A DNA stretch of 64,000 bases from Sinohyriopsis cumingii. Its lineage: Eukaryota > Mollusca > Bivalvia > Unionida > Unionidae. The stretch spans positions 699,501 through 763,500 of the forward strand of contig JAPYKE020000270.1 of the NCBI GenBank assembly GCA_028554795.2, given 5' to 3'. Made by a program: the position numbers and the translations under genes. This document shows, piece by piece, positions 33,599-59,026 of the stretch. The notes beneath the pieces are model-generated. The model ran no database searches. It saw nothing but the letters and a program-made list of their open reading frames with translations, and was not told the DNA's origin. Within the stretch, counting starts at the first letter, position 1. The number at the start of each line of letters is the position of its first letter.

Positions 33599-33957
33599 AG
33601 TAGCGAATGGGGACGATTCAGCGTCAATGGGAATTAGCATTACAAACCACCCTGGGACGATATAGCGTCAATGGGATATTTAACATTACGGAAACCCTTG
33701 GGACGATATAGCGTCAAGGGGAATTTAACATGGGAATAAATCGTGGGACTGTTTAGCGTCAAGGGAAATTGAACAGGGTGAGACTGTTTAGCGTCAAGGG
33801 AACTTGAACAGGGTGGGACTGTCTAGGGACAATGGGAAATTGCACATGGGAAATTTAAACAGGGAGCTGTCTCTTTTTTTAAAAAAGGGGGTAGGCATGA
33901 AAGTCAAGGTCTTTTCGAGGCATATGAAGGGGCCCTGAAAAGGGCCTTTGGGGTTTC
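33599..33957 (+). repeat. Left terminal inverted repeat of the Polinton
   Basis: It matches the reverse complement of 58,670-59,026. The outer 240 bp holds six iterated units (starts at about 33,610, 33,654, 33,700, 33,745, 33,780 and 33,815) around a GAC-N6/7-AGCGTC core. The inner part carries a histone-like hairpin (33,931-33,946) and a shared AAGTCAAGGTCTTTTCGAG segment. Confidence 0.9.
33931..33946 (-). terminator. Histone-type 3' stem-loop, copy 1 (left TIR)
   Basis: On the minus strand the core reads GGCCCTTTTCAGGGCC: a perfect 6-bp stem with a TTTC loop, preceded by CCCCAAA. A CTCGAAAAGA block follows 14-15 nt after. It terminates leftward transcripts of the first arm gene and is mirrored by the hairpin in the right TIR. 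Confidence 0.8.
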
Positions 33958-34176
33958 CGCTTCTTCTTCTAATTTCTTCTATTTCTCCACCAGCTTCTTA
34001 TTTTCTTTCCAAAACTTTTCCTCTTCTTTTCGTTCGTTTCTTCCTCATTTTTCTTCTTTTCTCCTCTTTCTGCTTCTCCTCCTCTTCTTTTTCCTCTTCT
34101 CATTTTCTTCTTCTTTTTCAATTTTTTCGTTCCACGCTCTCATCCTCTTCATCCTCCTTCTCCTTCTTTATTTCTT

Positions 34177-34353
34177 TCAACAGATAACAGATGATTTCTT
34201 TAGTTTTCGTAAGTTGTTGATCTCCATCTTTATTCTATGTGGACCATAAGAATAGCGATCCTCGTCCAGTCTTACTAACATCTGCTCCATTATTCCTAAA
34301 TTGTCCAAAACGTCTAGCAATTTTTTTATTTTGTCAAGGTGGTTCGAAGCCAT
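34177..34353 (-). CDS. Small arm gene 1, 58 codons (probably truncated by frameshift)
   Basis: The ATG at 34,353 starts a 58-residue frame (MASNHLDKIKKLLDVLDNLG...) with heptad-like Leu/Ile spacing, suggesting a helical coiled coil. After the TGA at 34,177 the other frames continue as a Lys/Glu/Arg-rich, strongly polypurine stretch to about 33,960. The original protein was therefore probably longer, with a charged tail that has since been frameshifted. The start is supported by TATATAAG about 60 bp upstream and by the shared arm promoter element. A histone-like hairpin lies downstream. The N-terminus resembles the other two arm genes (Leu-rich L-x-x-L-x-x-L spacing). Function unknown. Confidence 0.55.
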   Translation of the reverse strand: MASNHLDKIKKLLDVLDNLGIMEQMLVRLDEDRYSYGPHRIKMEINNLRKLKKSSVIC

Positions 34354-34400
34354 CTTCTTTTTTATTCTTTGTAGAATGGTGCGAACGACGAACGTTGTGG

Positions 34401-34440
34401 GTTCTTATATAAAAAGTGCGGACGTGAAGGAAAACATCCC
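34401..34440 (-). promoter_or_regulatory. Arm promoter, copy 1
   Basis: On the minus strand, GGGATGTTTTCCTTCACG is followed by TCCGCAC, then TTTTTATATAAG. The same arrangement precedes the genes starting at 35,108 and 42,355. Confidence 0.75.
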
Positions 34441-34744
34441 CTACATTTCTCTTCTCATATTATCTACTATTCACACAGTAATGACTAGACAAATAACATA
34501 ACCATAATCTACTATCCATACACACTCAAATCAGCCAAATCAAACCCAAACTATAATATCCACACACACACGACAAGCAGCAAAACCATATCCATAATCT
34601 ACTATCCACACAAACGTACGCGAGCGCTTACAAACACAAACACATACACTCACACTAGGAAAAAAGAGTTAGTGTTCATATTCACACTACTCTACATACA
34701 CACATTGGCAAATCGATTGCTATTTCTTTTCTAGAGTATAGGGT

Positions 34745-34760
34745 AGCCCTGAAAAGGACT
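34745..34760 (-). terminator. Histone-type 3' stem-loop, copy 2
   Basis: The minus-strand core is AGTCCTTTTCAGGGCT, with one weakened stem pair. A CTCTAGAAAAGAAAT block follows 10-12 nt downstream. Confidence 0.7.
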
Positions 34761-34787
34761 GTTTGTTTCCAACTCCACAGACACCTG

Positions 34788-35108
34788 TTAGTGGTTGCAC
34801 CTCCCCGGCCTGGCACCGCAAACGCATCTTCTACTCCAGTCTCCTTTCACTCTTTTATCTGGAAGTGCAGAGGCGGGATGAGTGGCTTCAGAATCCCAAT
34901 CTTTTGTCTCTGGGATTCTGAAATATCCTTGTTGAGGCTGTGGTACATCCATTTCTCTCTCCTTTTCCACCTCTTCTTTTTTTCTTCTCTCTTACTCTTT
35001 CATCCTTCCTTCTTCCACTATAACCTCTGCAGCCAGCCCATTCAATATGAGCCTGGCATATTCCAGGTGAACATGAAGTTCAAGAAGTTTCGCTAGCCTT
35101 CTGCTCAT
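34788..35108 (-). pseudogene. Small arm gene 2 with one in-frame stop
   Basis: From the ATG at 35,108 the frame encodes MSRRLAKLLELHVHL and a short helical region, meets TAA at 34,992-34,994 after 38 codons, then continues open in the same frame (acidic/basic KKEEVEKERE region, a PQPQQGYFRIPE segment, and a Cys-rich end CVCGARPGRC) to a final stop at 34,788. The N-terminus (M-x-x-R-L-A-K-L) matches that of the gene starting at 42,355, so the two are paralogues. The promoter element lies about 50 bp upstream and a histone-like hairpin about 30 bp downstream. Function unknown. Confidence 0.6.
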
Positions 35109-35153
35109 TTTCTTGTGTTCATCAATCAACAAGGGTAGCTAGACTGCCCAGCG

Positions 35154-35262
35154 GTTTTCAATATATACGAAAAGCGCGGACATGAAGGAAAACATCCCCT
35201 AAAAGCCCAAACGTATATTACCTACATTATAGTCTAAAACGCGCGGACCTAAAAGAAACACT
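35154..35262 (-). promoter_or_regulatory. Arm promoter, copy 2 (with a second, weaker copy upstream)
   Basis: On the minus strand, GGGATGTTTTCCTTCATG runs into TCCGCGCTTTTCGTATATAT. A degraded second copy (TTTCTTTTAGGTCCGCGCG, followed by ACTATAAT) sits at about 35,234-35,262. Confidence 0.7.
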
Positions 35263-35441
35263 CACTTTTTTACTACCCATTACTAATTTAAAAAATTTCA
35301 TTAATCACTTAAAGAAATAATATACTGTCCACATACATAAAACAGTCAAATCAAACCCAAATCTACTATCCCCGCACTTCAAACAACAAAAAAATATTAT
35401 CATAATCTACCATCCACACAAACGTACGTGAGCGCTTACAA

Positions 35442-35442
<1 letters not shown>

Positions 35443-35498
<56 letters not shown>
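35443..35498. repeat. (CA)n microsatellite
   Basis: About 28 CA units inside the spacer of the second arm module. The first module has short ACACAC stretches at the equivalent place (about 34,561-34,570). Confidence 0.97.
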
Positions 35499-35499
<1 letters not shown>

Positions 35500-35597
35500 A
35501 TACAATCACACCATAAAAGAGTGATTGTTTATATTTACACTACTCTACATTTACACATTGGCAAATTCATAATTATTTCTTTTCTAGAGGTTTGTGT

Positions 35598-35613
35598 AGC
35601 CCTGAAAAGGGCT
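35598..35613 (-). terminator. Histone-type 3' stem-loop, copy 3
   Basis: The minus-strand core is AGCCCTTTTCAGGGCT, a perfect 6-bp stem with a TTTC loop. ACCTCTAGAAAAGAAAT follows about 9 nt downstream. Confidence 0.8.
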
Positions 35614-35647
35614 GCTGTTTATGTTGACTTGAAGCTTTGGCAATCTT

Positions 35648-35865
35648 TTAGGTTCTAAGATTGCGGCCTCCTCTGACGATAGGCTTTCTCCAAGGATTAG
35701 GTCTGCTTCTTCGGAAAGATAAGAAGAACTCTTTGGTATCGATAGGACAGTCGACAAAGCCTCTGTCAGGTTCAGGTTGCTGCTGCTGCTTCTGCTGCTG
35801 TTGCTGTTGCTGCTCTCTCTGCTGTTTCTGAAGTCTGTATTTCTCTGTCCATTCTTCTTTCTCCC
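35648..35865 (-). pseudogene. 3' part of a Gln-rich arm gene, 5' end lost
   Basis: The frame is open from the edge of the LTR-like insert (35,865) to TAA at 35,648. It encodes a charged helix (EKEEWTEKYRLQKQQ), a polyglutamine stretch, a PEPDRGFVDCPID segment and a basic end (RRSRPNPWRKPIVRGGR). No ATG is available in frame; the start was removed or displaced by the insert. The Gln/Glu coiled-coil region resembles that of the gene at 57,660-58,222 in the opposite arm. A histone-like hairpin follows about 35 bp after the stop. Function unknown. Confidence 0.55.
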
Positions 35866-36666
35866 TGTTAATTTGTTAGTTAGTTAGTTGAATTATAGTG
35901 TTTTTCGTTGTTTTGACATGTACCACTTGTTTATTCACGCACTGCGTGATTTTTAATTACTCCTGGGGGAAGGAAAAAGAGCCTCATCCCCCAGGCTTTT
36001 ATGTACTCACAGAGTACTTTTTAATTTAGCCACTCAGGTGTAGGACTAACTAGTCCTTAACAACCTGACTCAAAGGCTAATAAACATGAGTGGGAATAGT
36101 CACACCACACACTCATGCTTCTTAGTTGGATTGAAATGCCCCAGGTGTCAACCCAAGCAGTATGTGACGCCCACTACTATTGGTCGGCAGCGATGACGTC
36201 ACATTAGGACACCTGGTCTTGTGGCAGGTGGAAATCTTTCCACAAACTGCCACGTGTACGTTGTCCGAGCGTGGTAAAGGAGAAAGGTACTCGGATAGCC
36301 AGCCATGGATGTCATGTACTCCCCAAAACGCCAGCCCGTACTTATTCCAAATCATGTCCAATTTTACTAATGGACAAAATATACCAATAATGTGTTAGCC
36401 ACCTCTGCAATTAATCAAATCATAAGTTATAAATTCTGAATAAAATTTTCCGAACAAGTTTGAATTTAGTGTACATAGTGTACATGCTTATTGAAATTAA
36501 AAACCAATCGTTCAAGTCTAAACGACTTATAGCAATTGAGTAACGCATAGTAAAAGGGTAAGTGTGAGAAATTAAACGGCGGTACCAAGACAGATCAATT
36601 CAGATGTAAGATTAGTTGATCTAGGTGGGATACCAAGCCAAAATGGATCCCTATTAGATATTTACA
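35866..36666. mobile_element. LTR-like insert (possible solo LTR)
   Basis: This segment starts TGTTAAT and ends ATTTACA, an imperfect TG...CA inverted terminus. It carries an AATAAA site at about 36,442, a CRE-like TGACGTCA at about 36,193-36,200 and a G/C hairpin near 35,965-35,996. It has no coding capacity. It cuts a Polinton arm gene. No matching 4-6 bp target duplication is visible (flanks CTCCC and GGCAA). Confidence 0.5.
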
Positions 36667-36678
36667 GGCAATTTTAGT

Positions 36679-36694
36679 AGCCCTAAGAAGGGCT
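36679..36694 (-). terminator. Histone-type 3' stem-loop, copy 4
   Basis: The minus-strand core is AGCCCTTCTTAGGGCT, a perfect 6-bp stem with a changed loop (TTCT). It is preceded by AACAAA. The stop codon of the arm gene lies inside it. No clear GAAAAGA block follows, perhaps because the LTR-like insert begins 12 bp away. Confidence 0.65.
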
Positions 36695-37188
36695 TTTGTT
36701 TTTAGGAAAACGTTCCCCGTCTATCTTCTGCTTCCCTGCATAGCTGGGCTGTTTGCTTTCTTTGTTAGTTTCCCCTGGAAAAGCATAACCCCGAAGTTTA
36801 GCGATGTATTTAGCCGCCTCGGTCAGCTGGTGTAAGGAGAACTCTGAGTAAGCTTCATAATAGAGCGCCAATTAATGTATTTGACTGCATTGACGAAGTG
36901 GCCCGCTTTCTTGATATCATCAATTGCATTTCCCAGTCCCATATTCCGGTAGACAGAGCCTTCCTTTTCTCCACTCTGTTTAGGTGGTGCAGGTTCCTCA
37001 GCTTCATCGCCGCTGGATGATGATAATTCCAGGGCCTCTGCTAGCGTGGAAGTTTCAAATTCTTCGGGGTCGTCTGCCAACATTGCCTGGATTTGGCTGA
37101 GTATGTTAGTAGAAATAGCTGTGGAAGCTTCATTTAGAATTTCAGCCAGATGTTGTTTAAGAGACAAGGAGACCGTTAAGAGTAGATC
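36683..37188 (-). pseudogene. Small arm gene 3, 3' part (separated from its start by a LINE)
   Basis: This is the C-terminal portion of the gene that begins at 42,355. The frame is open from the LINE junction (37,188) and encodes a helical segment (SLKQHLAEILNEAS), an acidic Ser-rich stretch (LELSSSSGDEAEEP) and, after a frameshift near 36,868, a second helical region (LTEAAKYIAKLRGY) and a basic C-terminus. It ends with TAG inside the histone-like hairpin. The reading frame on both sides of the LINE is the same, which supports one interrupted gene. No known family was recognised. Confidence 0.6.
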
Positions 37189-37564
37189 AGGAAGGCAGTA
37201 TAGATAAAGATTTTTTATATATATTTTATTTTAATTATAAATTTTTTACATTTTTTTTTTCTTAATGAATTCCTTATTTATTTTGATTCCTTATCTTACA
37301 CTGGTCAACAGTGAAATCATTACTGACTTGAAAAGGCCCTAATCTGTAGTATTTTGGTGTGCCGAACACGAATATAACCGTGAAAAATTTGTATTGGCTC
37401 TCGTTTTGAAGATATTCATATACCTCATTTTCTATGTTTCACTGTGTAAATTTCTCCAGTAGGACTGCAGCAACATCCGGAATAATGATGTAACATTGCA
37501 TAATACCATCATGCTCACATCATCCACAGTTGATTGCATCATTTTCTGATGCAATGCAATACTA

Positions 37565-37792: not shown

Positions 37793-39480
37793 ATGCCTCG
37801 AAAGTGTGTTAATACCGCGGACAATTTTTGCTATATTTGTGGGGAAGTGACATTTGCCAACCAGAAGAAAAGTATCAATTCTCAAGTGAAGAAGGCATAT
37901 CATCTTTACTTCGGATGCAAGGTTGGTGACCAAGACAAGCCTTGGGCTCCGCATATATGCTGTGCTACATGTACAACACAGCTTTCACAGTGGTTGAATT
38001 GCAAAAGGTCATCAATGCCGTTTGCAGTCCCAATGGTGTGGAGAGAGCCAAGCAACCACCTAAATGACTGTTACTTCTGCTTGGTTCCTCCTCTTTCCGG
38101 CGGAATAACGAAGCGAAAGAAGTCGAGAATAGTCTACCCAAACATTCCGTCTGCATTGAGACCAGTTCCACATGGTGAGGGACTTCCTATTCCAGAACCT
38201 CCAGCAGAATATTCTCTTGATTCATCTGACGAAGACAAAGGTGAGTCGACCTGTTCTTCTCCTGGTCCATCAGCATGCAGTGATCCAGATTTTCACTGTG
38301 GTGCATCATCAACCCCACACAGAATAACACAGGAAGAACTAAATGACCTGATTCGTGATTTGGACTTATCAAAGAACAAGGCAGAATTGCTAGGATCAAG
38401 ACTCCAACAATGGAATCTTCTAGAAGAAGATGTCACAATTACTGCATATCGAAAGCGCCACCAGCAATTGGAGCCTTTCTTCAGAAAGGAAAGTAATCTG
38501 ATATTCTGTTCCGATATTGAGGGCCTCATGAATGCTTTAAAAATCACTCATGACCCACAAGAATGGAGACTATTTGTGGACTCTTCGAAACTGAGTCTCA
38601 AGGCTGTGCTTTTGCACAATGGAAACATTCTTCCATCTATTCCAGTAGCGTATGCTGTCCACATGAAAGAGACATACGATAACTTAAGGCAGCTACTGAA
38701 TTCCATTGAGTATAACAAGTACAGCTGGCACCTCTGTGGTGATTTGAAGGTAGTTGCCCTTTTAATGGGACTGCAGCAAGGATATACAAAATACATGTGT
38801 TTCTTATGCGAGTGGGATAGCCGAGCAAGGGAAATGCACTACATGAGGAAGGAATGGACTCACAGGCAGAATGTAGCCATTGGAGAGAAGAATATCCAAC
38901 ACCCAGCTCTGGTTGAGGCTCAGAAAATCTTGCTACCACCCCATCACATCAAACTAGGTTTGATGAAGAACTTCGTGAAAGCCATTGACCGGACTTTGCC
39001 AGCATTCCGATACCTGCATGAAAAATTCCCTCGACTCAGCGAAGCAAAGATTAAAGAGGGAGTTTTGTGGGTCCTCAGATTCGAGAGCTTTTCAAAGATG
39101 ACCGGTTCAACAACTTGCTGGAAGGTGACGCGAAACAAGCATGGAATGCTTTTCGCCTAGTTTCTACAAACTTCCTCGGAAATGTTAGGGCAGAAAACTA
39201 TAAGGAACTAGTAGAAGACATGTTGATGAAGTATAAGAAACTTGGCTGCAATATGTCTCTAAAGATTCACTTCCTTCATTCCCATTTGGATTTCTTTCCT
39301 AGCAACTGTGGTATTGTTAGTGATGAACACGGCGAACGTTTTCATCAAGATATCGCAACAATGGAACAAAGATACCAGGGAAAATGGTCCACTACAATGC
39401 TGGCTGACTACTGCTGGACACTCCTCAGAGATGCTCCCGAACAGCTGTACAAGAGACAGGCGAAGAAATCTAAGATGTAG
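37793..39480 (+). pseudogene. Putative DDE transposase, one frameshift
   Basis: From the ATG at 37,793 the frame encodes about 425 matching residues. A one-base indel in a T/G run near 39,065 then moves the reading to another frame, which continues to TAG at 39,478-39,480 (about 560 residues in all). The N-terminus has a Cys-rich zinc-binding-like region (CYICGEVTF and CCATCTTQL). The middle holds LFVDSSKLSLKAVLL and HLCGDLKVVALLMG, each with a candidate catalytic Asp, then a CFLCEWDSR insert. The late SDEHGERFHQDI motif supplies a candidate Glu. I associate this protein with multi-copy uncharacterised proteins in invertebrate genomes (from memory). Transposase function is inferred from the TIRs and target duplication. 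Confidence 0.72.
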
Positions 39481-42222
39481 TCAATGACTTGATTTTTTAT
39501 AGGTAGGCTATTACAGTTGACCTTTTACTATTGGAATGCATTTCGTTATGTAAACATTAATTTCTTGCAGATTACAAAAAAACTAGAGCCAATTTTGCAA
39601 TTTGACTGTCATATTCGTGTTCAGCACATAAAAATTGATAAGAATTGACTAATTTTATTTCAGTAACATGACTTTTGTAAAAATTTGTTGTCCAGTGTTA
39701 TTGGTTTGGAGTGAAAACTTGTTTTATTGTTGTTCTTATGTTATTATGGAGTCCTGTTTTAATTAATCCCTATTTTCCTATTTTAATTATTTTAATTTTT
39801 GTGGCCTTAATTGGTTTTTATACTTTTGGGCTATGAAGGGATGTGTCAGTCTGTGAACCCACGAGACCTAGCAGGCCGTCATAATTCCCAAACAGTGATT
39901 TTGTACTATTCGTCCTGAACTGGGTTTTATTATTCGGGCTATGAACGGCTGTGTCAGTCTGTGAACCCACGAGACCGAACCGGCCGTCATAATTCCCAAA
40001 CAGTGATTTGTATATTTTTGACTGGTCTTTGATTTACTTTCTTAGATTTTTTTTTATTAGATTGGATTCGTATATAAAACTTATGACATTTTCGAATGTT
40101 AGATTAATATTGGGGTTGTGTTCATCAAGAAGTCTGGGTATGTTGCAGGGGATCCAATACTATGCTGTTTAACTTTAAACTTAGACCTTTCTTTTTCAAG
40201 TGTGTGGCAGTTGTTAAAAATATGTTCTATGTCTTCTTGGACCCTGCAATGGTAGCAGTTAGGGTTAGGTGTTGTGGTCCTATGTACTGTCCGAAGCTGT
40301 TTGCCAGCTTGGTTTTGCCCGTGAGTATTCTATTTATGAATTTTTGTTCATTGCCTTTTGTTTTTGGTGGTTTCCTATTTCTACAGACTTCTTTAATGAT
40401 GGTTTTTAGTTTCCTGCCTTGAGTGCTTGTGTTCCATAATTCCTGCCATTTATTATCAATGAGGGTTTTAGATATGCTATTGAGTTCGCATATGCTATAA
40501 TCTAGGTTGATGTGAGTGGTTTCGTTTAGTTTTTGTTTAGCTGTTGCATTTGCCATATCGTTACCTTTTATGTTAATATGGGATGGTATCCATATAAATT
40601 CTACTTTTAAGTTATTATTGTTCAGTATTTTTAACAGTAAATGGTTTGCCCAAGATAGTTTTCTCTTGATTTGGTGTTGTTATTAAGTATTGAGTTTATG
40701 ACGCTTAGCGAGTCACTTATTATTACCGCTTGGGGTATTTTGTTCTCTTTGATCCATTTGAGTGCTTCAAGTATGGCCCAGAATTCAGCTGTGTATATGG
40801 AGCAGAGGTTAGGTAGTCTTCGTCCTACTTTAATGTTAAGTTCGGAGATTACGTAAGCTGCTGCTGTTCTGGGTGGTTCTGTTATTTTGGATCCATCAGT
40901 GTAAATCTTAATGTATTTGCAACATTTTGAGTTGATTTCTTCTGTACAGATTGTGTTTAGTTCGAGTTCCTGTTCGTTTTTCTTGCCATATTTTGTAATG
41001 AGGGTGTTAACTGAGGGGTTGATGTTTATCTATGGTTCTTTGTCATAGTGATTTGCAATTTCTGCTTGGAGGTTGTCTATAGGAAGCTGTTTAACTAATT
41101 GATGGACTAATTTCCCGGCTGGTATGTTTTGTGACAATTTAGTTCTAAAAGGTATGTTGCATTTATTTATAGCTAGCCGGGTGGTGTGTGTGTCGGGGTG
41201 TGTTGTTAGCCTGGCTGCATATCTGAGGGTGAGTTCTTGTCTTCTAAGGTGGAGCGGCAGTTCTCCAGTTAAGATTTGAAGCTCCACTAGTGATGTGGAT
41301 GGTATAGCTCCAGTGCAAATAATTAGGGCCTTTCATTGTATGCTATCTAGTTTCTTGAGGTTATTTTGGGGTGCCGAGTTGTAAATTTGGCATCCGTAAT
41401 CTAGTTTAGATCTAATTAACGATTTATATAATGCTAGTAAGATTTCTTGATTGGATCCCCAGGTGGTTCCTTTAAGAGTTGTAAGGAGTTTAAGGTCTTT
41501 ATTGCACCTTTTGACTAGTTCGTTTATGTGGTGTCCCCAGTTTAGCTTGGAGTCATAATGCATTCCTAAAAATCGTGCTACTCTTACGAATTTAATTTCT
41601 TGATTTTGGATGGTGAGTTTGGGAAACTGATTTTGCAATTTACTTTTGGTGGTGAATAATACTGCTATGGTTTTTTCATGGGATAATTTGAAACCCCATT
41701 TATCATCCCATTTCCCTATTTTGTTTAAACTTGTTTGAATATCGCTAATTACTTTGTGGTTGGAGGGGTTCCCTGCTCTCCATAATCCACTATCATCAGC
41801 AAATTGTGAGAGTTCAATTAGTTTTGATGTTAAGTTGGTGTCCAAGTCATTAATCGTGATGTTGAAAAGGGTTGGTACCGTTTTCAAGTGTGTGTGGTTC
41901 AGAGTAGGTGTCGCCGACTCTGGTTGATATTTTACGGTCAGAGAGGAAGTTTTCAATGAATTTAAACATTCGACCTGTGGTTGAGTTTGGCTAATAAGCC
42001 ATTGGTCCATACAAGGTCGAATGCCTTTTCGAGGTCAATAAATACTGCAATTAAATTCCTATCAGCTTTGTGTTTGGAGTTGAACGCTAATTTGATGGCG
42101 GTTTCCAATCTTATCAGTTGATCCGTGGTGGATCTTTTGTTTCTAAATCCGCATTCTTTATCGGTGATTAAATTATTGCTCGCTAGGTGGTGTCTGAGTC
42201 GGTTGGTGACTATGGTTTCCAT

Positions 42223-42355
42223 GATCTTCTATCACGTCCTCAGTGACTTTTAACATTCTCACATTCTCTATCTCTTCAGGCTTCGGTATCAGACTGTGTC
42301 TGACCCTATGCAAATTTACGTAGGCTTCGTTTAGCTTAGCTAGTCTGGAGCACAT
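42223..42355 (-). pseudogene. Small arm gene 3, 5' part
   Basis: The ATG at 42,355 begins MCSRLAKLNEAYVNLHRVR, and the frame stays open to the LINE junction at 42,222. The start is supported by the arm promoter element and a TATAAAA box about 55 bp upstream. The N-terminus resembles that of the gene starting at 35,108, so they are paralogues. Its continuation lies at 36,683-37,188. Confidence 0.65.
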
Positions 42356-43756: not shown

Positions 43757-43761
43757 AGCTT

Positions 43762-45045
43762 CTAATAGTCTAGAATGACTTCTCTCATACTGTTGATTTC
43801 TATCGTATTATCGAATTCTGCATAGATGATGACATTTACTGTCTCTAGCAGCTCCTTTGTATAGGGTGGAAATGTCCCTCGTCACTGCCCTGGTCAGGGG
43901 TGAAATCAAAAGCCCACAAAGCATAACCTCCTGCGTAATCTTCGTACGTAATGCCGTGACTGGTGTTCGTTCCTAACTGGCCAGTGGCTTCGTACAGGGA
44001 CAAGTACGATCTCAAGTAATGAATCTTCTCAAAGTCAGGTTCGAAAGGTCTGGAACACAAGGTCTTGCCATCGCGACTGACTTTCGATTTTCTTCACCTT
44101 AAAGTGTTGAAAGGCGAAAGGATTTTCAGTGAAGGCTCCGTTGAAGGCTGAATTCTCCACCATACCAAGGATTAAACGCTTGGGTAACTGTCCTTGAAAC
44201 AGATGATCTTCGATCATGGAATGATGGCTAGCGGGAATGGTGAACGTTTTCACTTCCACGCATCGTATTGGATACTTGGCGGTCGTTCTGCTCAAAGTGT
44301 TACTGATGTCATTTCCCACTATAGATAACACTTCCACGCGTCTTACGTAGAGTTTGGCCTCCTTGATTTTGCTTTTGGGATTGCCGACAGCACTATCAGC
44401 CAACAAATGGAAAGCGGTACTGCTACGATTCAGTCTCAAGCGGATATTTACACCGTTCAGCAAATATTTCTCTTCCAGCGACATGTCCAAATACAAACGA
44501 TCCATCAGTTCTAGACTCTGTCCATTTAATATTTTCTCTCTTCGTTCTACAAATCCCGCATTATGTGGTGTTTTGCTTGTATCCTTTTAGGTTTCGTTAA
44601 ACTCGTCCGCATCATCAGGTTCCCATAACACGCTGGCATTGAGATGGGTGTTCTTGGCGTCTATTCCGTACGTCAAGAAAGTTTCCAGGTAGGCACGGTA
44701 AGGGTAAGTATCCATGCTGCTACTGACTAGTTTGTTATTCAAGTACAAATCCACTGAACTGAACAAGGAATGCATGAAATTGTTGACGGGAGCTACTTTC
44801 TCGTCTACTATAATATCTCCTTCCTTACCTAGAACTTTGACTTTCAAGTACAAGTAACTGCTATTCAGATCGATGTAATCTTCGGGCTGTCCTTTGATTT
44901 CAAACTCGATGGGAGCGGAATCTGTCAATGAGGAGACAGGGTGAAATTCCACCCATTGGGATTCTTGCATTGTCATCATGGTGGGTGGCATGGTAAACAG
45001 ATCCAGTTCCGACTTGGAACAGGTACAAGACTCTCGGTGCATCAT
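43762..45045 (-). pseudogene. Major capsid protein (double jelly-roll, hexon-like), broken
   Basis: It begins at the ATG at 45,045. An early block (VEFHPVSSLTDSAPIEFEI, DYIDLNSSYLYLKVKV, NNFMHSLFSSVDLYLN, YPYRAYLETFLTYG) is the typical N-terminal jelly roll of Polinton/adintovirus hexons. TAG at about 44,588 interrupts the frame, which then resumes (the LMDRLYLDM region, a VRRVEVL segment, PKRLILGMV). Near 44,050 a frameshift follows (YLSLYEATGQLG, DYAGGYALWAFDFTP). A second shift near 43,850 moves the reading to the C-terminal segment ending at TAG 43,762. So at least one stop and two frameshifts are present, and the C-terminal barrel is slightly deleted. The homotrimer would build the icosahedral capsid faces. 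Confidence 0.9.
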
Positions 45046-46669: not shown

Positions 46670-47654
46670 TCACTTCTTTTTATAGTCGACGACTTGCGAA
46701 GCTTCTATCCAATGATCGAAACTGGGTGGATATCCTTTCGAAAGTACTTTGACTTCTTGGACACGTCGTTTGCCCACTTTACGGGTTCTGCGTTCGAGAA
46801 TGCTTTCGGTGTCGTACGCGTCGTCTTCTTTGTTGGTGACACGTTGTAACTCGGGCTAATATAACGTTCCTTTGAGCACATCTCCGTTCACGTATTCCAA
46901 TTAATAGACGGCAGGATGACGGCCATGCACTCGTCCAGTGACACGAAACAATTCGATCGTCCAGTTAGGAAGTAACCTTTGTCGAAAGTGCGTTTGGTTT
47001 TGCCAATGCGCACCCAATCTCCTACGGCCAACACTACACTTTTCCTGGGGACAGCCCTCGTTTTGGACGTACCAAACAGGGGATCAGACACCAGCACTTC
47101 GTTCTCGGGAGTCACTCAAAGTGCGTTGAAAACGTTCCACGATATTGGCTTTGGTTTCAGGATTCTCGGTGTTAAAAAATGAATGTCACGTTTCTTTAAT
47201 TCTTTTTGGAAAGCTTGGTTCAGAAATTCGGTGCCTTTGTCCGTTTGTCATCGAAGAGGGTGGCGACCGCTTTGTTTCAACACCGTTGCAGGGCTCGCAC
47301 TAACTCGCTGCTCGATTTGGAAGTCAATGGCACGACCCAGGCAAATTTGGAAAAGACGTCGATGGCACAAAACAAATATTTGTAGCCATGATTGTAGCTG
47401 GCCAAATGAGAGACATTGGCTAAATCGGCTTGCCATTGATGATCGATGCCTTCCACTCGGGTGCGACTTCTGGCAAACTTGCGTCGAATGGGCTTGTGTA
47501 ACGTGTAAGTAGCTTGTTCTTTTAACCATCGTGGCACTTGAGATAAACGCACACTTTTCAGTCGAGTTTTGGCAGCAGGATACAATTTTTGAACTCCTGC
47601 GTAACCTGCAGGATGGGAGGGATCGTAGTAAATGCTGGCTAACACCTTTTCCAT
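46670..47654 (-). pseudogene. Integrase (rve family, retroviral-type) with C-terminal chromodomain, broken
   Basis: The enzyme inserts the linear element into host DNA. From the ATG at 47,654: an N-terminal segment LASIYYDPSHPAGYAG, then QWQADLANVSH (first catalytic Asp), YLFCAIDVFSKFAWV, and a stop at 47,277-47,279. Downstream the frame changes: a DDKRTKAP remnant marks the second Asp region, and a further frame shows the Glu region (NIVERFQRT). Then come a WVRIGKTKRTFDKGY SH3-like part and, in another frame, a chromodomain-like end (YDTESILERRTRKVGK, KGYPPSFDHWIEAS). At least three frame changes and two stops make it inactive. The final stop lies within the TATA-like box of the next gene. 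Confidence 0.9.
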
Positions 47655-49707: not shown

Positions 49708-50030
49708 CTTAAGAGAGAGCGAATGATGACACCTCCTAGAGTACCGCCTCATCCAGGTTTCAAAATGATTTGTTTTTTGGTCTGAGTGTCGATGCGGAGA
49801 TCGGCTAGTTGGGTCAAAGCGACTTTGTGTCGATCAAAAGATCATTTGATTTGATGAGGAATCTGAATGATCCCTTGTAGTAATTGACGTGCTGTCACCG
49901 TGAACCATCGTAAAACGTCTTTGAGACTGGCTTCTAAGACACGAGCCCGTATTTGTGGATGTTTTTCTCAACTGATGCCATATAAGGCACGAATCAATTT
50001 GACGGGAAGATGCGACTGAAGGGACGTCAT
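49704..50030 (-). pseudogene. Polinton small protein with KK-x-I-L motif, three in-frame TGA stops
   Basis: From the ATG at 50,030: SLQSHLPVKLIRALYGI, then a stop; RVLEASLKDVLRWFTVTA, then a stop; HKVALTQLADLRIDTQTKK and QIILKPG, then a stop; and finally GGTLGGVIIRSL. All three stops are TGA and there is no frameshift across about 108 codons. The ending recalls the KK-L-GG motif of the gene at 48,345-48,743. The promoter box CTATAAAAAC overlaps the end of the ATPase gene. Confidence 0.6.
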
Positions 50031-52511: not shown

Positions 52512-52519
52512 GAAGAGGT

Positions 52520-52928: not shown

Positions 52929-53549
52929 GGTAAGTTACTTCAATGTCTCGTTCCCACCAAGGGTAAGTAATGACAATTCGGCCGAATCTTGTGGTTCCCA
53001 GTTGTGAAGTGACACACCGCAACTGAAGCACTTGACTTTATCCCCTTCGCCTAAATAGAAAAATCCGGCTCTGGCTAATTCTTCAAGGGTTGGTCCTCGC
53101 AGATACTTAGGCCATTTTCCTTTGAACGATTGAAGATGATTTTCAAAGTCGCAGTATCCAGACAAACGCACAGGGAACGAATATTCGTCTTTAGCAGGTT
53201 CGTTCCGATGAGGGAAGGGTGACATGGACAGGAGTTTGCTCAAGGCTGGATGACAACCGTCGGGAGGTAGACATGAAGGTTGACATCCACATTGACCATG
53301 AAACCCAATAAAGTGCCCACGATGACCAGGGACATCGATTTTGCATCCCTCAGGCTTGTCACGTACAGCATCACTTTCCATGATAGGGATAGTGACACTA
53401 AAGTTCCCATGATGCTTTACGGCATCGCTAAGGTCACAACGTATAGCATCTCTCCCATCGCAAGGCTCACAATCGCATTCTACTTCAGAGGCCCCAAACT
53501 TGAATTGTGCCTGTCTGAACTTGTTTTGTATTTCTCTGAAAGTATTCAT
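52837..53549 (-). pseudogene. BIR-domain (inhibitor-of-apoptosis-type) protein, frameshifted
   Basis: The first ATG is at 53,549. A Cys-rich N-terminal region (about residues 25-115: CDCEPCDGRDAI, CGCQPSCLPPDGC) precedes one BIR domain: RLSGYCDFENHLQSF, WPKYLRG, LARAGFFYLGEGDKVKCFSC and LHNWEPQDSA. The two first zinc Cys (C-x-x-C) are intact. A frameshift near 52,990 then moves the reading, and in the next frame the expected His and last Cys ligands are replaced (TYPWWERD). BIR proteins bind and block caspases. A host-derived anti-apoptotic role is inferred. The promoter box TATATAAAAAGG lies in the last codons of the polymerase gene. Confidence 0.78.
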
Positions 53550-53594
53550 CTTTTTCACTTGGTCTTGGTAGTCACAAGGAACTATCGATCTTGC

Positions 53595-56500
53595 CTAGGG
53601 TTCCTTTTTATATACAGACCAATACCGACGTATCCATACGGTAGCGAAAAAATGATTGGGAAGTCGCACTCGCTTCTGGTACACGATTTGATAGACTTTT
53701 TCCAAGAGTCGACTCACGATTTGGTGAGTGGGTAAACGTACAATCTTGTTGGGCTGATAGGTGGTCACTTTAAAGAGTTCATCTTTTCCAGACTGCAAGG
53801 CTTCTTTCAATACGCCAAAGTTCACCATTCGACTTGTACGATAATTCAGAGTCAATCATTTCACTTTACACTTCGTGTTCACTTCTCCTTGTTTGTCCCG
53901 GTATTCGTAGCCGTAATTGTTAGGACCGCCACTTGCGAAACTTAGAATCTTGTCGTCATGGCGCTCGTCTGTCCAGGGTCCTAAACGGTCTCCTTCGATG
54001 CCAGGGTGCTGTTGACTTGGTGATCGATGTAAATGCAACTGTCCGGGTCAAAGTACAGGACACGTTCCCCTAACAGTTCTAAAGCTTCGTACAATTTTAA
54101 GCGAGCATGAGCTGTCACGTAAGCCGCAATGATGACATTTCCAAAGGGGTCAGCTTCTACAAAGTCCAGATCTTCTTCGTCATTCACTAAGATCAAATCC
54201 TCACGAACGACGTCCACGTGTTTGATTAATTTGGTTTTGTCGTGAATCATCTGGAAGTAGCGTGAAGGTTCTGTCAAATATTCAGTCTTGGGTAAACACG
54301 GTCGTTTTGCCATTTTACCCCACAAGCAATTTAACATCACTTTGGCAAACGATCGCCTGCCTTCGTTTTTTTCGATGTGATCTAAAGAGATGCCTTCTTG
54401 TTCCCAGTATTTCTCTTTGAATTTAATTTGGTCTTCGGGAGTGTAACACCAGGACGGATAGCCACTGGCTTCTTGCTTCAGTTTCAAAAAGCCATCCACG
54501 TAGTCTGCGAAAATGCCTTTCTGAGTGGGGTTACCCTTGTGGCATTGTTGTGTCTTGGGAAAATGGCAAATTTCGTACACTTCTAACAGTTGGTATCCCA
54601 TGTCCATAGCTTTAAACAATTCTGCGCTGACCCAGTTTCCCGTCAAGGCGCGTTCTTCCTGGGTGTAATGACAAGGTTGGTCTTGGTTGCACGTTTCGGC
54701 ACATGTACGACACAACGGAAACATCCGTTTGCCTTGACAATGGTGAGGTAAGACGGGATGCTACAAGTCGGTGGGAGGCAACACTTTGCACTTGATCAAG
54801 CCTTCGTATTGTCGAATGTTGGTCAGGTCGATGTGTTCTGTCAACAATTGTTGGTGCCCTGCAGGAAAGCGACAATATTTGCACACGTAGGGATACAGCG
54901 AACACACCTCTAAGTATTTCATTTCTTCTCCTTTCTCTTCGTCGGTTTCATACAGCAAACAGGTGGCATTGGTTCTTCCTCCGTACATACTATCCCTCGG
55001 ATTCAGGGAGTCCATGAACTGGTAGCTTTACACGAGGCGTTTAAACTCGGGATCGATTTTCAAACGGTGATCGTACTCGTGTTCCCACATTTCCTCCACT
55101 TGGTATCCTTGCTGTTCTAACTTTAGGCGTCGCTGACAAGTGGTCTGGTACAAGTCTTCCATGGCTCGATGTAAAAACTGATTTTTAGTACCACGGTTAG
55201 GGTAACAGACGGGACATCCGTGAAATAAGCAACCGTTAAACTCGTACACGATCTTGGGGTTTTCTAAGTCCCAACCATCGACCGAATACGTTCCTATGGT
55301 CTTTTCGCCACCTCCGTTGCGGGCATGCTGAATCCATTTGTCTTCTTTGTCGCACAAGTAATGTAACCAGTGTAGGGCTTTGACCGAGTACTGACGTTTG
55401 ACATAGTTGGTCGATGAGGACTGATGACAGCCACGGTGTTTTCAGGCATGAATCGTTGTCTGTACACTAAGGAACATGCTTTGGCAATGGTGCAAGCTTC
55501 TTTCAAAGGATCGACCCCTCCGTGTTCCATGAACAGTTCTCGAAATTTTCCACAGCAACCTCGTAAAATGTCCACGTCGGAACGACAATACTTTAACATT
55601 TCTTCCTGAAAGTCAAAAGGGTCCGAGGCATTAGTCTGGTACCAAGCGTATAAAGCTTCTCGTCGTTCGGTACGCATGTTGTCGGGGTCATAATAGTTAA
55701 CCTCAGGCAAGTGGGGTAGAAAGGCATGTTGATTGGCTTCGGTATTGAAAAAGTGTGGAAAATACCCTTTAGTCATTTCTGTCATTCCAAACGTTTTAGG
55801 CATTCGACTCAAAGGCATGGCTAAATAGCTCATCGAATCTTTAAACTGTACTTTTCCCACTTGGATGAAAATGAGTTTGGCTCCGTTCAAAGTGACTTTA
55901 GGACGTTCGGTGCCTTGTTCCGTATAGTATCTGAGAAGAAACTGTCCATCGTATCCCGAGAAATTATGAGCCATCACCGTGGCATGACGATGACAATCTC
56001 CGTAACGTTTGATGTCCTCTTGGCTCCATGTCTTGTCAATGGGGTCTACGACCCATTGGGCAAATTCGGGTAGCGTGTGAGATCCCCGAAAGATTTTTTC
56101 ACGCCCTCCAGGAATCTTGCTGCAGTGAGGGCAATGACTGAAGATGGGTTCTTGAACGCACTTCTCACACACTTGATGAGCCACACAGAAATTAGGAATG
56201 TGAATGCCAGTCTCTTGCATGCATTCGAAATTGAAAAAGATGAAATTGCCTTTCTTGTTGGGGTTGGTACTTTTGCATGTAGCATTGATGTTCCAAGTCC
56301 ACGATTCGGTGACTAATGGGACATTTTTTCTTTCCTCAACATACGTGAAACTTGGCACTATTCTTATGTATGCCTTGTTCACACGTAGGGCACAATCTCA
56401 AGAGTTGACATGCACTTTTCTGTTTTGAAATTATCGCTTGAGTGTGGTGAACAAAGAATCCCACATCTCGGTGATAAACCCTTCTGCTTTCTCTAACGGT

Positions 56501-56794: not shown

Positions 56795-56927
56795 CTTGAC
56801 TGCAAAAAGTCAAATGACTAAAGTTTAAACACCATGTGTTACCTTACAGCCATGACAGAGCAGCGTATATAAAGGGTGTGTGTCTTGTCCTTCCACTATT
56901 CGTTTCACTCTCAAACCGAGCACAACG
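56795..56927. promoter_or_regulatory. Divergent promoter with one shared TATA box
   Basis: GCGTATATAAAGGG at about 56,870 reads TATATAAA to the right and TTTATATA to the left. It sits about 50 bp before the zinc-knuckle ATG (56,928) and about 80 bp before the polymerase ATG (56,794). On the polymerase side a GTAAGGT...TTTTTGCAG pair could mark a short 5'-UTR intron, but this is unproven. Confidence 0.55.
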
Positions 56928-57299
56928 ATGGACGAGACCACACAGATCGAAGTTTTCATCAGAGCTTTGCTAGGGGTCACCCGAACATTGTCTTCAGACC
57001 AGCCGAGGGATTACTTACGCTCCCTTCGAGATAAAAGTCAAGATACTTGCTATATCTGTCAGAAGAAAGGGCATTGGTCTTCAGAGTGTCCAGACCGTCA
57101 ACAAAGCAAAACAGGGGCTAAAAGAGACAAAAGTCAAGATACCTGTTATCATTGTCAAGAAAAAGGACATTGGTCTCCAGATTGCCTTAAGAAACAACAG
57201 GAGCAAGAAGAAGAGGGGAGTGATGGAGAGGAAGAAGAGGAAGAAAGCAGACAGGTGAAGAAACAGAAACAGGAGAAAAAAAAGAAGGAAAGAAAGTGA
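56928..57299 (+). CDS. Two-zinc-knuckle (CCHC) protein, 123 aa, intact
   Basis: The ATG at 56,928 is the first after the TATA box (an upstream in-frame extension exists without ATG). After a short N-terminal helix (QIEVFIRALLGVTRTL), two CCHC knuckles lie at about residues 43-56 and 71-84: CYICQKKGHWSSEC and CYHCQEKGHWSPDC, each preceded by a repeated DKSQDT. The tail is acidic, then basic (EEEEEE, then KKQKQEKKKKERK). CCHC knuckles bind single-stranded nucleic acid. The gene runs opposite to the polymerase, which suggests a role early in replication, but that is inference. AATAAA follows at about 57,439. Confidence 0.8.
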   Translation: MDETTQIEVFIRALLGVTRTLSSDQPRDYLRSLRDKSQDTCYICQKKGHWSSECPDRQQSKTGAKRDKSQDTCYHCQEKGHWSPDCLKKQQEQEEEGSDGEEEEEESRQVKKQKQEKKKKERK

Positions 57300-57611
57300 G
57301 AATGAAGTGGAGGAAAAAGCTGTGAAAGTGAAGACATTTAAAAAAAGAGAGAGTGAAAAAAGAAAAAGAAGAAGAAGCTTATGAACTTTTTAAAATATTA
57401 GGTGGTGTTGTGATTTGGACTGTAAAATTTGTACCAGAATAAAAAGTCTATAAAACGTAAGTGTGTCTCTTGGTTTTGATTTTTAGTATAAGAATCTACA
57501 CTCACACGCACTCAATCATTCACACGTACTATGAGGGTAAATAAGGTTTTCTTTTTAGTTTTAATTGATCTTGGCAAATTGAAACATTATTTCTTTTCGA
57601 GAGACATGGGT

Positions 57612-57627
57612 GGCCCTGAAAAGGGCC
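57612..57627 (-). terminator. Histone-type 3' stem-loop, copy 5 (best match)
   Basis: On the minus strand ACCCAAA-GGCCCTTTTCAGGGCC-ACCCA matches the metazoan histone consensus on both flanks. A CTCGAAAAGAAAT block starts about 10 nt downstream, in the position of the histone downstream element. It follows the stop of the gene at 57,660-58,222 by about 33 bp. Confidence 0.88.
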
Positions 57628-57659
57628 TTTGGGTCTTGATGGATTTTAAATAACAAAAT

Positions 57660-58222
57660 TTAGGAAGCAATCAACTTTAACTGCCTTAAGTCTTTGACAC
57701 GACCAAGGCCTACTTGTGGACTGCGTACTGTCGATGATGATTTGGTAGAAATAATTAAGGGTGGTAAGGTAGGTGTTGTCACAGGTTTGGGTTGTTTAGC
57801 TCTTGAAGGTCTTTTTCTCTTCGGTCGTAATAAAGAAGTCTGATACATTTGTTTCAGACTTCTTATCTCCGCTAAAATGTCTAACAGTATCGTGACCGTT
57901 TGATTTTCACCTTCTTGTTTCTTTGCTGATGCTTCTTATTGTTGTTTTTTTCTTACCTCTTCTTCTTGCTGTTGCTGTAGGAGAAAAGCTTGTTCCACTT
58001 CCTTTTGCTGTTGTATACATTTCTCCAATTCTTCTTCTGTCTTTGTTTAAAATTCTCCACATGCGGTAATGAAGGAGAAGGTGGCGAAGGTTCCGGAACA
58101 AATTCTTGCGAAAGAAAATCCACAAAATCCCAATTTACTTCTTCTGGAAGTAAGTCCGGGTTTCCTTGGGTAGTCTCCACGACTGGTGCACCCCAATTCA
58201 CGGTCTTCTGAGTTTGCGCCAT
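57660..58222 (-). pseudogene. Right-arm Gln/Glu-rich coiled-coil gene, one frameshift and one stop
   Basis: From the ATG at 58,222: MAQTQKTVNWGAPVVE, a VNWDFVDFLSQEFVPE segment and a Pro/Ser-rich part. After a frameshift near 58,040 comes a Gln/Glu coiled coil (EELEKCIQQQKEVEQAFLL), TAA at about 57,936, and in the same frame TVTILLDILAEIRSLKQMY and a basic C-terminus (RPKRKRPSRAKQPKP) to the stop at 57,660. The coiled-coil region resembles the left-arm remnant at 35,648-35,865. It has a TATATAG box at about 58,258 and a histone-like hairpin downstream. Function unknown. Confidence 0.65.
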
Positions 58223-58428
58223 GTTTATGCTTACTGTGTCGCAAACTCTAGTGCCTCTATATAGGACATGTGATGTCACGGACTGCTTTCTTCAGATTGG
58301 ACAAAGGGTGACTGAATTTTGTAACGCGTGTTTGGATTGGTCAATTAACTCAATCCGTTTCAATCCTTCCTCTCCCTATAAATAAGCACAGTTCACTGCA
58401 TTCCTTCACCTGTTCTCGGCACCCCAGC
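58223..58428. promoter_or_regulatory. Divergent promoter with two TATA boxes and CCAAT-type motifs
   Basis: CTATATAGAGG faces left at about 58,255-58,264 and CTATAAATA faces right at 58,376-58,384. Between them are ATTGG (inverted CCAAT) motifs at about 58,297 and 58,336. Confidence 0.65.
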
Positions 58429-58662
58429 ATGTGGACCACAGTGGAATCGTCTACTTTAATCTCACCGATGATGTTCCGGACTGACATACCGATGTATGTC
58501 CGATCCACCTGGACTATTGTCCATAGGACAGAAACAAGCCTGTGGATGAGAAGGATTTACGTGGAGAGGCAAGGATGCCTAAAGAGGGTGTTAGTGTATG
58601 GTCCTGAAGTCAGACGTAGTTTAAGGAAAAGAAGAACATCTCAAAGATGCCCTCTATGTTAA
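58429..58662 (+). CDS. Right-arm small protein, 77 aa, intact
   Basis: The ATG at 58,429 follows TATAAATA by about 45 bp, and the frame is open to TAA at 58,660. The protein begins MWTTVESSTLISPMMF, has a basic middle (SLWMRRIYVERQGCLKR) and ends KRRTSQRCPLC, with two Cys near the C-terminus. No family recognised. A histone-like hairpin starts 28 bp after the stop, at the inner edge of the right TIR. Confidence 0.65.
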   Translation: MWTTVESSTLISPMMFRTDIPMYVRSTWTIVHRTETSLWMRRIYVERQGCLKRVLVYGPEVRRSLRKRRTSQRCPLC

Positions 58663-58669
58663 CAGTAGG

Positions 58670-59026
58670 GTATGTTAACATAAACCCAAAGGCCCTTTTC
58701 AGGGCCACTCCTATATCTCGAAAAGACCTTGACTTTCATTGCCTCCATTTTTCTTTAAATGTCTCTTGTCTGTGTACATGTTCTATTTCCCATTGTCCCT
58801 AGACAGTCCCACCCTGTTCAATTTCCCTTGACGCTAAACAGTCCCACCCTATTCAGTTTCCCTTGACGCTAAACAGTCCCACGATTTATTCCCATGTTAA
58901 ATTCCCTTTGACGCTATATCGTCCCAGGGGTTTCCGTAATGTTAAATTTCTCATTGACGCTATATCGTCCCAGGGTGGTTTGTAATGCTAATTCCCATTG
59001 ACGCTGAATCGTCCCCATTCACTACT
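58670..59026 (-). repeat. Right terminal inverted repeat of the Polinton
   Basis: Reverse complement of 33,599-33,957. It contains the same six iterated units (about 58,795-59,016) and ends CACTACT before the CATATG duplication. Confidence 0.9.
58691..58706 (+). terminator. Histone-type 3' stem-loop, copy 6 (right TIR)
   Basis: The plus-strand context is ACCCAAA-GGCCCTTTTCAGGGCC-ACTCC with GAAAAGA at 58,720-58,726. It is the mirror image of copy 1 in the left TIR and ends the rightward gene before the iterons. Confidence 0.85.

Follow-up and report, generated by a model that had tools for sequence, protein, structure and literature searches.

Introduction

Polinton/Maverick elements and adintoviruses are characterised by inverted repeats starting with AG and a 6-bp target duplication, and by a type B DNA polymerase (PolB), an rve integrase, capsid homologs and variable small genes in the arms; the element described here resembles both in these respects. 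Replication-dependent histone genes are commonly recognised by their histone-type 3' ends, a feature usually taken to be their hallmark. A 2025 study (PMC12220804) tallies six histone 3'UTR stem-loops among the genomes of Polinton-like viruses and virophages, giving no more than the count. This count qualifies the statement of an earlier note on this DNA that its author knew of no such report for Polintons; in the literature searched, no other report of histone-type 3' ends or promoter elements on Polinton or adintovirus arm genes was found.

The window is a stretch of 64,000 nt from the bivalve mollusc Sinohyriopsis cumingii (GCA_028554795.2, contig JAPYKE020000270.1, 699,501-763,500, forward strand). 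It contains a 25.4 kb Polinton whose arm genes, judging from their sequence, very probably imitate the replication-dependent histone genes of the host. The combination of histone-type hairpins and promoter signals suggests that the element ties its own genes to the phase in which DNA is copied.

The Element and Its Core Genes

The borders and the core genes of the element are as follows.

33593..33598 and 59027-59032, no strand: target-site duplication CATATG, 6 bp, by direct reading
33599..33848, no strand: left terminal inverted repeat, starting with AG and containing tandem 35-46-bp repeats; 96% complementary to the right end
58777..59026, no strand: right terminal inverted repeat, terminating in CT, by complementarity to the left end
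44587..45045, minus strand: major capsid protein, first piece, core gene; 156 homologs, some named F54H12.2-like
47277..47654, minus strand: integrase piece (rve), core gene; Pfam E=6.7e-6
55294..56382, minus strand: DNA polymerase type B piece (DNA_pol_B_2), core gene; Pfam, above cut-off
56880..57299, plus strand: gene Q, a zinc-knuckle protein adjoining the right arm; it bears no histone hairpin and serves as an internal contrast

The long terminal inverted repeats and the 6-bp target-site duplication by which a Polinton/Maverick is recognised are thus present, as are the protein-primed PolB and the retroviral-type integrase, the rve match of the latter lying under the curated cut-off. The name F54H12.2-like is one that we take to denote the Polinton capsid protein. 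The protease-like and ATPase-like core pieces have no Pfam match.

Histone-Type Hairpins on the Arm Genes

Six hairpins, each with a 6-bp stem and a 4-nt loop, are found in the window where the earlier note had placed them and in the orientations it gave. They are listed here with their genes and with their scores under RF00032, the Rfam covariance model of the histone 3' stem-loop (curated cut-off 34 bits).

33931..33946, minus strand: hairpin of arm gene A, 28.9 bits
33910..33919, minus strand: downstream purine element CTCGAAAAGA of A
34177..34353, minus strand: arm gene A (MASNHLDK...), gene start, with the frame broken further on
34745..34760, minus strand: hairpin of arm gene B, 22.9 bits
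34725..34734, minus strand: downstream purine element CTAGAAAAGA of B, equal to the element of host H3, H4, H2B and H1
34788..35108, minus strand: arm gene B (MSRRLAKLLEL...), with one in-frame stop in the window copy
35598..35613, minus strand: hairpin of arm gene C, 26.6 bits
35578..35587, minus strand: downstream purine element CTAGAAAAGA of C
35648..35875, minus strand: arm gene C, a Q-rich frame ending 34 nt ahead of the stem
36679..36694, minus strand: hairpin of arm gene D, 29.2 bits, without the GAAAAGA element
36823..37167, minus strand: arm gene D piece, its frame breaking ahead of the hairpin
57612..57627, minus strand: hairpin of arm gene E, 37.5 bits, above cut-off
57592..57601, minus strand: downstream purine element CTCGAAAAGA of E
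57660..58279, minus strand: arm gene E (MAQTQKTVNWG...), split over two frames in the window copy
58691..58706, plus strand: hairpin of arm gene F, 35.3 bits, above cut-off
58717..58726, plus strand: downstream purine element CTCGAAAAGA of F
58429..58662, plus strand: arm gene F (MWTTVESST..., 77 aa), an open frame

The core GGCCCTTTTCAGGGCC, described as the commonest, occurs in three of the six hairpins, the outer pair being A-U in the remaining three, and the block CT(C/A)GAAAAGA, said to follow five of them, does so, starting 10-11 nt past the stem and being absent at 36679. That each hairpin lies just after or at the end of an arm gene holds for B, C, E and F (27, 34, 32 and 28 nt from stop to stem, the value for C being that of one of its frames) and is only approximate for A and D because their frames are broken in the window copy. 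A covariance scan had been proposed as a check: RF00032 matches all six hairpins with E-values of 1.2e-7 to 0.034 (4227 families over 32 kb) and, at E up to 5, matches nothing else in positions 30000-62000 or 1-33000 of the window; two of the six matches (E and F) are above the cut-off and four are below it. The predicted minimum-energy fold is the histone fold for four hairpins, another fold being preferred at 33931 and 34745.

Recurrence across Copies in the Host Genome

Genome-wide, the association of hairpin and arm gene proved real and wider than first noted. All 75 scored RF00032 matches in the host genome are above the cut-off (best 45.6 bits), and each of the 48 examined closes a Polinton arm gene, namely F in 23 cases, A in 9, E in 9 and a further gene, G, in 7; several copies of B and E lie under the cut-off, at 21.8-31.4 bits. 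At all 84 Polinton arm-gene ends compared, the hairpin core agrees in at least 14 of 16 positions, with 9 mismatches among 504 stem pairs, and it is flanked by AAA or AAC in 82 and by ACC in 75 cases; a downstream GAAAAG or AAAAAG follows at an offset of 13 nt in 78 and of 14 nt in one, and was not found in five. In the background, made up of window flanks and core, the same core threshold is reached in 0 of 1798 stretches of 130 nt, versus 4 of 1529 arm stretches. Another check that had been proposed concerned hairpins after orthologous arm genes. Among gene ends other than those by which a copy had been detected, 44 of 44 have the hairpin core and 43 of 44 have GAAAAG, and both signals are present in 20 of 20 copies chosen by protein similarity alone. 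A stricter test of stem pairing is passed by 27 of 30 E ends and 13 of 14 B ends. Gene Q has the hairpin at none of 21 matched ends from 13 loci.

The distance from stop to stem is 19-27 nt in E copies (27 ends), 19-25 nt in F copies with a single value of 7 (31 ends), 25-36 nt in 10 of 13 B copies and 15-18 nt in 5 of 6 A copies, the remaining A and B values being negative, from broken frames. G was left out of this count; its ends carry a strict hairpin after the matched end in 2 of 8 cases in one count and 0 of 8 in another, and they are not countable like the others because the G frame (locus L019) runs through the hairpin.

Viral contigs searched with the capsid piece, the PolB piece and the E alignment, and prokaryote genome contigs searched with the E alignment, yielded no relative. 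The hairpin pattern has 0 matches in the viral contigs, and a looser pattern picks out 11 stretches, four of them with a paired stem. Matches judged unrelated are L001, which is inside an open frame and has no RF00032 match; L004 and L007, which are the same sequence (29 bits, 26% GC) within a longer palindrome; and L008, with 25.2 bits under RF00032. The protein database holds 19 E homologs from contigs of 0.9-2.3 kb. One of these, P0129, known as a protein only, ends in SGPPTSLEKR, a tail that resembles an in-frame translation of the hairpin plus the purine element.

The Histone Genes of the Host

The histone genes of the same host bear the same hairpin, scoring 35.0-39.4 bits under RF00032, and a CTAGAAAAGA-type element. 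In these genes, GAAAAG begins 13 nt after the stem in H3, H4 and H2B and 14 nt after it in H2A and H1, and the stem follows the stop at 27-38 nt, with the stop codon subtracted. The downstream block of the arm genes is that of the host histone genes, in sequence as well as in spacing.

Histone Promoter Elements on the Left-Arm Genes

Upstream of A and B, the window contains three stretches shared with host histone promoters.

34418..34438, minus strand: promoter element upstream of A, 20/21 identical to the host H2B promoter
35173..35196, minus strand: promoter element upstream of B, H2B/H1 type, 22/24
35237..35258, minus strand: second promoter element upstream of B, 22/22 identical to the host H4 promoter

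The best identities for left-arm promoters are 24/24 with host H2B (A and G) and 22/22 with H4 (the window copy of B). Across eight promoters of A, B and G, the best match is 18-24, versus a maximum of 13 in 100 shuffles; the promoters of E, F and Q, three each, have no long histone promoter match, with scores of 9-10, 8-11 and 11, respectively. The motif GTCCGC is present in sense in 11/11 A, 3/3 B and 5/5 G promoters, and in only 4/32 of E and 0/33 of F; among host genes, the promoter element is absent in sense from H3 and H2A. In A and B, the histone promoter elements lie close to a TATA-like box, and such a box is mostly found 46-66 nt ahead of the ATG in A, B, E and F. The element may correspond to the HiNF-P/HINFP-type GTCCG sites of S-phase histone promoters. 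Neither the literature search nor the portions of PMC1794435 consulted confirmed an identity with the HINFP site.

Proposed Expression of the Arm Genes

In their build, A, B, E and F are each a short single-frame gene with a very short 3' UTR, its histone stem-loop mostly 15-36 nt past the stop and followed by GAAAAG 13 nt past the stem; A, B and G also have host histone promoter elements (H2B/H1 type, with the H4 type also in B). If the arm genes do imitate histone genes, the host SLBP would bind the arm hairpin, U7 snRNP would pair with the purine element, and CPSF73 would cut between the two. The resulting non-polyadenylated arm mRNA would arise and be translated chiefly during S phase (alternatively, in oocytes and early embryos), so that accessory or early proteins of the element would be made during DNA replication. 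It is somewhat less than an even bet that the full histone cis-regulatory code, promoter and 3' end together, has been taken over, with arm genes transcribed and processed alongside those for the host histones, possibly inside histone locus bodies, and expressed in S phase, the germ line or cleaving embryos, where new insertions would be heritable.

The search of the host genome for U7 (RF00066) gave three matches, all under the cut-off (best 29.3 bits, E 0.27), and the model also matched in 12 of 14 prokaryote controls; the best match, lacking the expected complement to the purine element, was rejected. A U7-like pattern occurs at 455 places, among which is one repeat family, whereas the reversed pattern used as control occurs at 235, and three short candidates among the matches listed were set aside as having no U7-like stem-loop. 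For SLBP (PF15247), an exon-by-exon search of the host genome returned no match, and the controls were likewise empty.

Alternative Explanations

The alternative that survives best, unlikely as it is, is dual use, in which the arm transcripts are polyadenylated in some conditions and take the histone route in others. Overlapping signals of this kind have been suggested for human histone genes (PMC9756948). Of 20 E ends sampled, 9 have AATAAA immediately before the stem and 11 have it anywhere in the 151 nt read, and within 250 nt it is found in E at 10/31, F at 4/32 and G at 1/8, against a background of 0.20; however, A (0/6) and B (0/15) have none, an A-rich 5' flank can yield AATAAA by chance, and the host H4 gene also has one within 250 nt.

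Quite improbable is a passenger origin, in which an ancestral Polinton would have picked up fragments of host histone genes a single time and passed them on, functionless, to its copies. The exact 24- and 22-nt identities with host promoters fit such a capture, and the listed E copies are 92-96% identical to the query and, being so closely related, are not independent; moreover, when conservation is compared over regions of 10 nt, the purine element barely stands out from its surroundings (0.91 vs 0.90 in E, 0.85 vs 0.85 in F). Column by column, in contrast, the stem (whose value is partly circular) and AAAAG are mostly at 1.00 and their neighbours at 0.4-0.8. Hairpin and element, furthermore, follow five different genes (A, B, E, F and G), the spacing being uniform among the first four, and both are kept in the window copy despite an E protein only 60% identical to the reference. 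Median dN/dS among open-frame copies (0.43 for E, 0.15 for F) also argues against passengers. E proteins are free of stops in 139 of the best-scored 150 copies, and E relatives are predicted to form one long helix (mean pLDDT 67.6). No arm protein has a Pfam match reaching the cut-off, and the motif [LI]xCxE (the Rb-binding LxCxE, as a sign of an S-phase inducer) has three matches, none in an annotated arm-gene frame.

More improbable still is that the hairpins act in DNA, as a cruciform or as a replication, packaging or integration signal, and merely resemble histone 3' ends. The outermost pair, 33931 (A) and 58691 (F), does lie inside the terminal repeats and is not an independent pair because both fall in a weakly matching (71%) inverted stretch; the hairpins of B, C and E, however, are inside the arms and oriented with their genes, and a role in DNA leaves unexplained the single-stranded AAA and ACC flanks, the purine element at offset 13 and the match to the host histone genes. 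Chance or low-information palindromes are practically negligible as an explanation, for while two of the six window copies disfavour the histone fold and the viral-contig scan also gave paired matches, judged unrelated palindromes, the hairpins recur genome-wide at the same genes and in 20 of 20 copies picked without looking at the RNA.

Comparison with Known Systems

If arm genes in an expanded Polinton family imitate histone genes in both 3' ends and promoters, a DNA virus or transposon would have a new means, independent of poly(A), of linking its genes to the cell cycle. The time and place of Polinton activity becomes a testable question, and, to go by the signals they encode, arm mRNAs may be naturally occurring substrates of SLBP and U7 other than histone mRNAs in a mollusc.

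In comparison with the 3' end of replication-dependent histone mRNAs, the arm genes have in common the stem, loop, flanks and covariance score, the purine element with its spacing and the short stop-to-stem distance, all of which are also seen in this host's own histone genes; here, however, these features stand on genes of a virus-like transposon that have no Pfam histone match. The likeness to S-phase histone promoters extends to A, B and G, while E and F are mostly without GTCCGC. The stem-loops of Polinton-like viruses and virophages belong to the same RNA class in related viruses, but the non-coding-RNA section of PMC12220804 does not deal with their position after genes, a downstream element, host histone genes or promoters. 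By comparison with Polinton/Maverick elements and adintoviruses, the element in the window differs in that its arm genes bear histone-type 3' ends and promoter elements.

The Polinton and its arm genes

The element that carries arm genes A to F is a Polinton, an assignment that follows from its inverted repeats (250 bp, starting with AG, 96% complementarity), the 6-bp duplication at its ends, the PolB and rve integrase pieces that it encodes and its capsid homolog. This copy has several broken genes, and two stretches listed below, an open reading frame (ORF) and a group of LINE-type pieces, are probably later insertions.

33599-59026: Polinton element, 25.4 kb
33593-33598 and 59027-59032: target-site duplication CATATG (6 bp), flanking both ends of the element
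37793-39480, plus strand: 455-aa ORF inside the Polinton, no Pfam match
40099-42228, minus strand: LINE-type reverse-transcriptase pieces inside the Polinton

A LINE-type reverse-transcriptase piece inside the element matches RVT_1 under its Pfam cut-off. The Polinton core also holds a BIR-domain (inhibitor of apoptosis) gene (52935-53558, minus strand). A basic protein rich in lysine, arginine, serine and proline (49063-49752, minus strand), which has neither a Pfam match nor a histone 3' end, looks like a DNA-packing protein.

Histone-type hairpins in the window and in related copies

The six histone-type hairpins that an earlier note had placed at the ends of arm genes in the window were all recovered by RF00032, the Rfam histone 3' stem-loop family; two of the six pass its curated cut-off, four are predicted to take the histone fold as their lowest-energy structure, and no further member was found in 30000-62000 or 1-33000 at E up to 5. 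The accompanying purine element, CT(C/A)GAAAAGA, is likewise present as described in five of the six, 10-11 nt past the stem, and is absent downstream of hairpin D (36679-36694).

Run on the whole host genome (2.9 Gb), RF00032 gave at least 75 scored matches, every one above the cut-off; genome counts are lower bounds because these 75 come from 589,472 first-look candidates. The counts that follow cover 48 of the 75 (8 + 20 + 20 loci). The closest same-strand arm gene match was F at 23 hairpins, A at nine, E at nine and G, a further left-arm gene known from other loci, at seven, and B hairpins were seen alongside; the expectation that such hairpins sit at arm-gene ends in related Polinton copies is thus borne out across the matches read. 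The distance from gene match to stem is 18-226 nt for A, 22-94 nt for F and 24-30 nt for E. The G match overruns the stem start by 27-38 nt in six of seven cases because its reference frame, taken from another Polinton locus (L019), reads through the hairpin; at locus L015, G stops 21 nt short of it. On the RF00032 scale, the top eight Polinton hairpins, at 44.1-45.6 bits, exceed the host histone hairpins (35.0-39.4 bits), and the B copies (30.0-31.4 bits) and some E copies (21.8 and 28.2 bits) fall short of them.

The Polinton family is strongly expanded, with at least 150 scored E copies in the host genome; 139 of the best-scored 150 out of 29,683 candidates are stop-free, which suggests recent activity. 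The protein-database E homolog P0129 has a tail that reads like hairpin plus purine element translated in frame, the sole such hint from outside the host genome.

Controls and conservation

Because the 48 read loci were picked by hairpin, two less biased sets of ends were used. The first comprises arm-gene ends in the read loci other than the search hits themselves; the core (6-bp stem plus 4-nt loop) reaches at least 14/16 in 21/21 E, 10/10 F and 13/13 B ends, with GAAAAG downstream in 43 of 44. The second comprises 20 E copies, about each seventh among the best 150 scored protein matches, and in all 20 ends the core reaches 15/16 or better and GAAAAG starts exactly 13 nt past the stem. Under a stricter pairing rule, a hairpin follows the matched end in 27/30 E, 31/31 F, 13/14 B, 6/6 A and 2/8 G cases. 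Among 1798 background stretches of 130 nt, drawn from the core of the element and the flanks of the window, none reaches 14/16 (maximum 13), and 4 of 1529 arm stretches apart from exact hairpins reach 15/16, possibly as imperfect arm hairpins themselves. At 21 matched ends of Q, the zinc-knuckle gene beside the right arm, in 13 loci, the hairpin is absent.

Mean pairwise identity by column is mostly 1.00 in stem, loop and AAAAG (minimum 0.78) and drops to 0.4-0.8 in several columns between them; the contrast is small when averaged across 10-nt regions, and stem conservation is partly circular because the hairpins had been selected. A, F and 27/31 E ends have G-C as their outer stem pair and 13/14 B ends have A-U, which is one compensated change, host H1 showing another; mismatches affect 9 of 504 stem pairs across 84 ends. 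The window copies of E and F, at 60% and 81% identity to their references, still have their hairpin signals. Median dN/dS is 0.43 for E (16 open-frame copies, 98 pairs) and 0.15 for F (15 open-frame copies, 53 pairs).

Match with host histone 3' ends

The histone genes of the host form a tandem array with a unit length of ~8.3 kb, and their 3' ends were taken from two units (L050 and L051). Of the 120 top-ranked relatives listed for host H1, those with names come from molluscs, chiefly bivalves (Mytilus, Saccostrea, Crassostrea), with the exception of one labelled a bacterial MAG. H3, H4, H2B, H2A and H1 all terminate in a hairpin, after which comes CTAGAAAAGA, or CCGAAAAGG instead in H2A; GAAAAG stands 13 nt past the stem in H3, H4 and H2B and 14 nt past it in H2A and H1. 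Among Polinton ends, GAAAAG or AAAAAG is found at offset 13 in 78 of 84 and at offset 14 in one, the remaining five carrying TAAAAG (three), GAAAGG (one) or an A run (one). A third block, CAATTTGCC or similar, trails the purine element at most arm hairpins and resembles sequence behind the host histone genes; 83 of 101 exact hairpins, 10 of them from host histone genes, have it at offset 28-31.

57573-57581, minus strand: third block (CAATTTGCC-like) behind the E purine element, ~30 nt past the E stem

At another host histone locus, L054 (G000:C14:13108901-13116800), the array is broken by a 986-aa ORF that looks like a LINE protein.

Histone-type promoter elements

A TATA-like box stands within 120 nt upstream of the ATG, usually between -46 and -66, in A (10/10), B (3/3), E (28/32) and F (32/32); it also occurs in Q (11/11) and, at other distances, in G (3/4). 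With the same pattern, host H1, H2A and H2B have the box and H3 and H4 do not. Longer matches to host histone promoters stand 5' of A, B and G. The sequence GATGTTTTCCATCACGTCCGCGCT, found 5' of A (loci L012 and L016) and of G (L015), agrees with the host H2B promoter at 24/24 positions, and the window holds three histone-promoter features:

34418-34438: H2B-type element 5' of A, 20/21 against the host H2B promoter
35173-35196: H2B/H1-type histone promoter element 5' of B
35237-35258: TTTCTTTTAGGTCCGCGCGTTT 5' of B, a 22/22 match to the host H4 promoter

The best score among 100 shuffled promoters was 13, and the E and F promoters show no long match to host histone promoters (scores 8-11). As host H1 and H2B share the H2B-type element (23/24), it looks, from sequence, like a histone promoter element rather than one gene's accident. 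Sense GTCCGC occurs in A (11/11), B (3/3), G (5/5) and E (4/32), in none of 33 F and 11 Q promoters, and in host H1, H2B and H4, being absent from H2A and H3. Presumably this GTCCGC-type element resembles the cell-cycle element that HiNF-P binds in vertebrate H4 genes; a literature check of that likeness gave no confirmation.

Proposed mechanism and relation to known systems

At the level of sequence, the signals, their spacing, their recurrence and their identity with host histone signals are established for the arm genes. By the known histone pathway, SLBP would bind the arm hairpins, U7 would pair with the downstream element and CPSF73 would cleave the arm transcripts; the arm mRNAs would lack poly(A), and the arm genes would be expressed in S phase. 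The benefit would likely be expression while nucleotides and replication proteins are available, or in the germ line or early embryo. Profile (RF00066) and pattern searches of the host genome identified no U7, and an exon-by-exon search, equally silent in its controls, identified no host SLBP. Dual processing of arm transcripts is possible because 9 of 20 E ends carry AATAAA directly 5' of the stem.

Among the openly licensed papers searched, none came up that describes histone-type 3' ends for Polintons of animals or for adintoviruses. For related viruses, histone-like proteins are described in PMC11071296, where neither stem-loop nor polyadenylation is mentioned. The one parallel found to the histone-type ends of the arm genes comes from PMC12220804, in which six histone 3'UTR stem-loops are counted in Polinton-like virus and virophage genomes.
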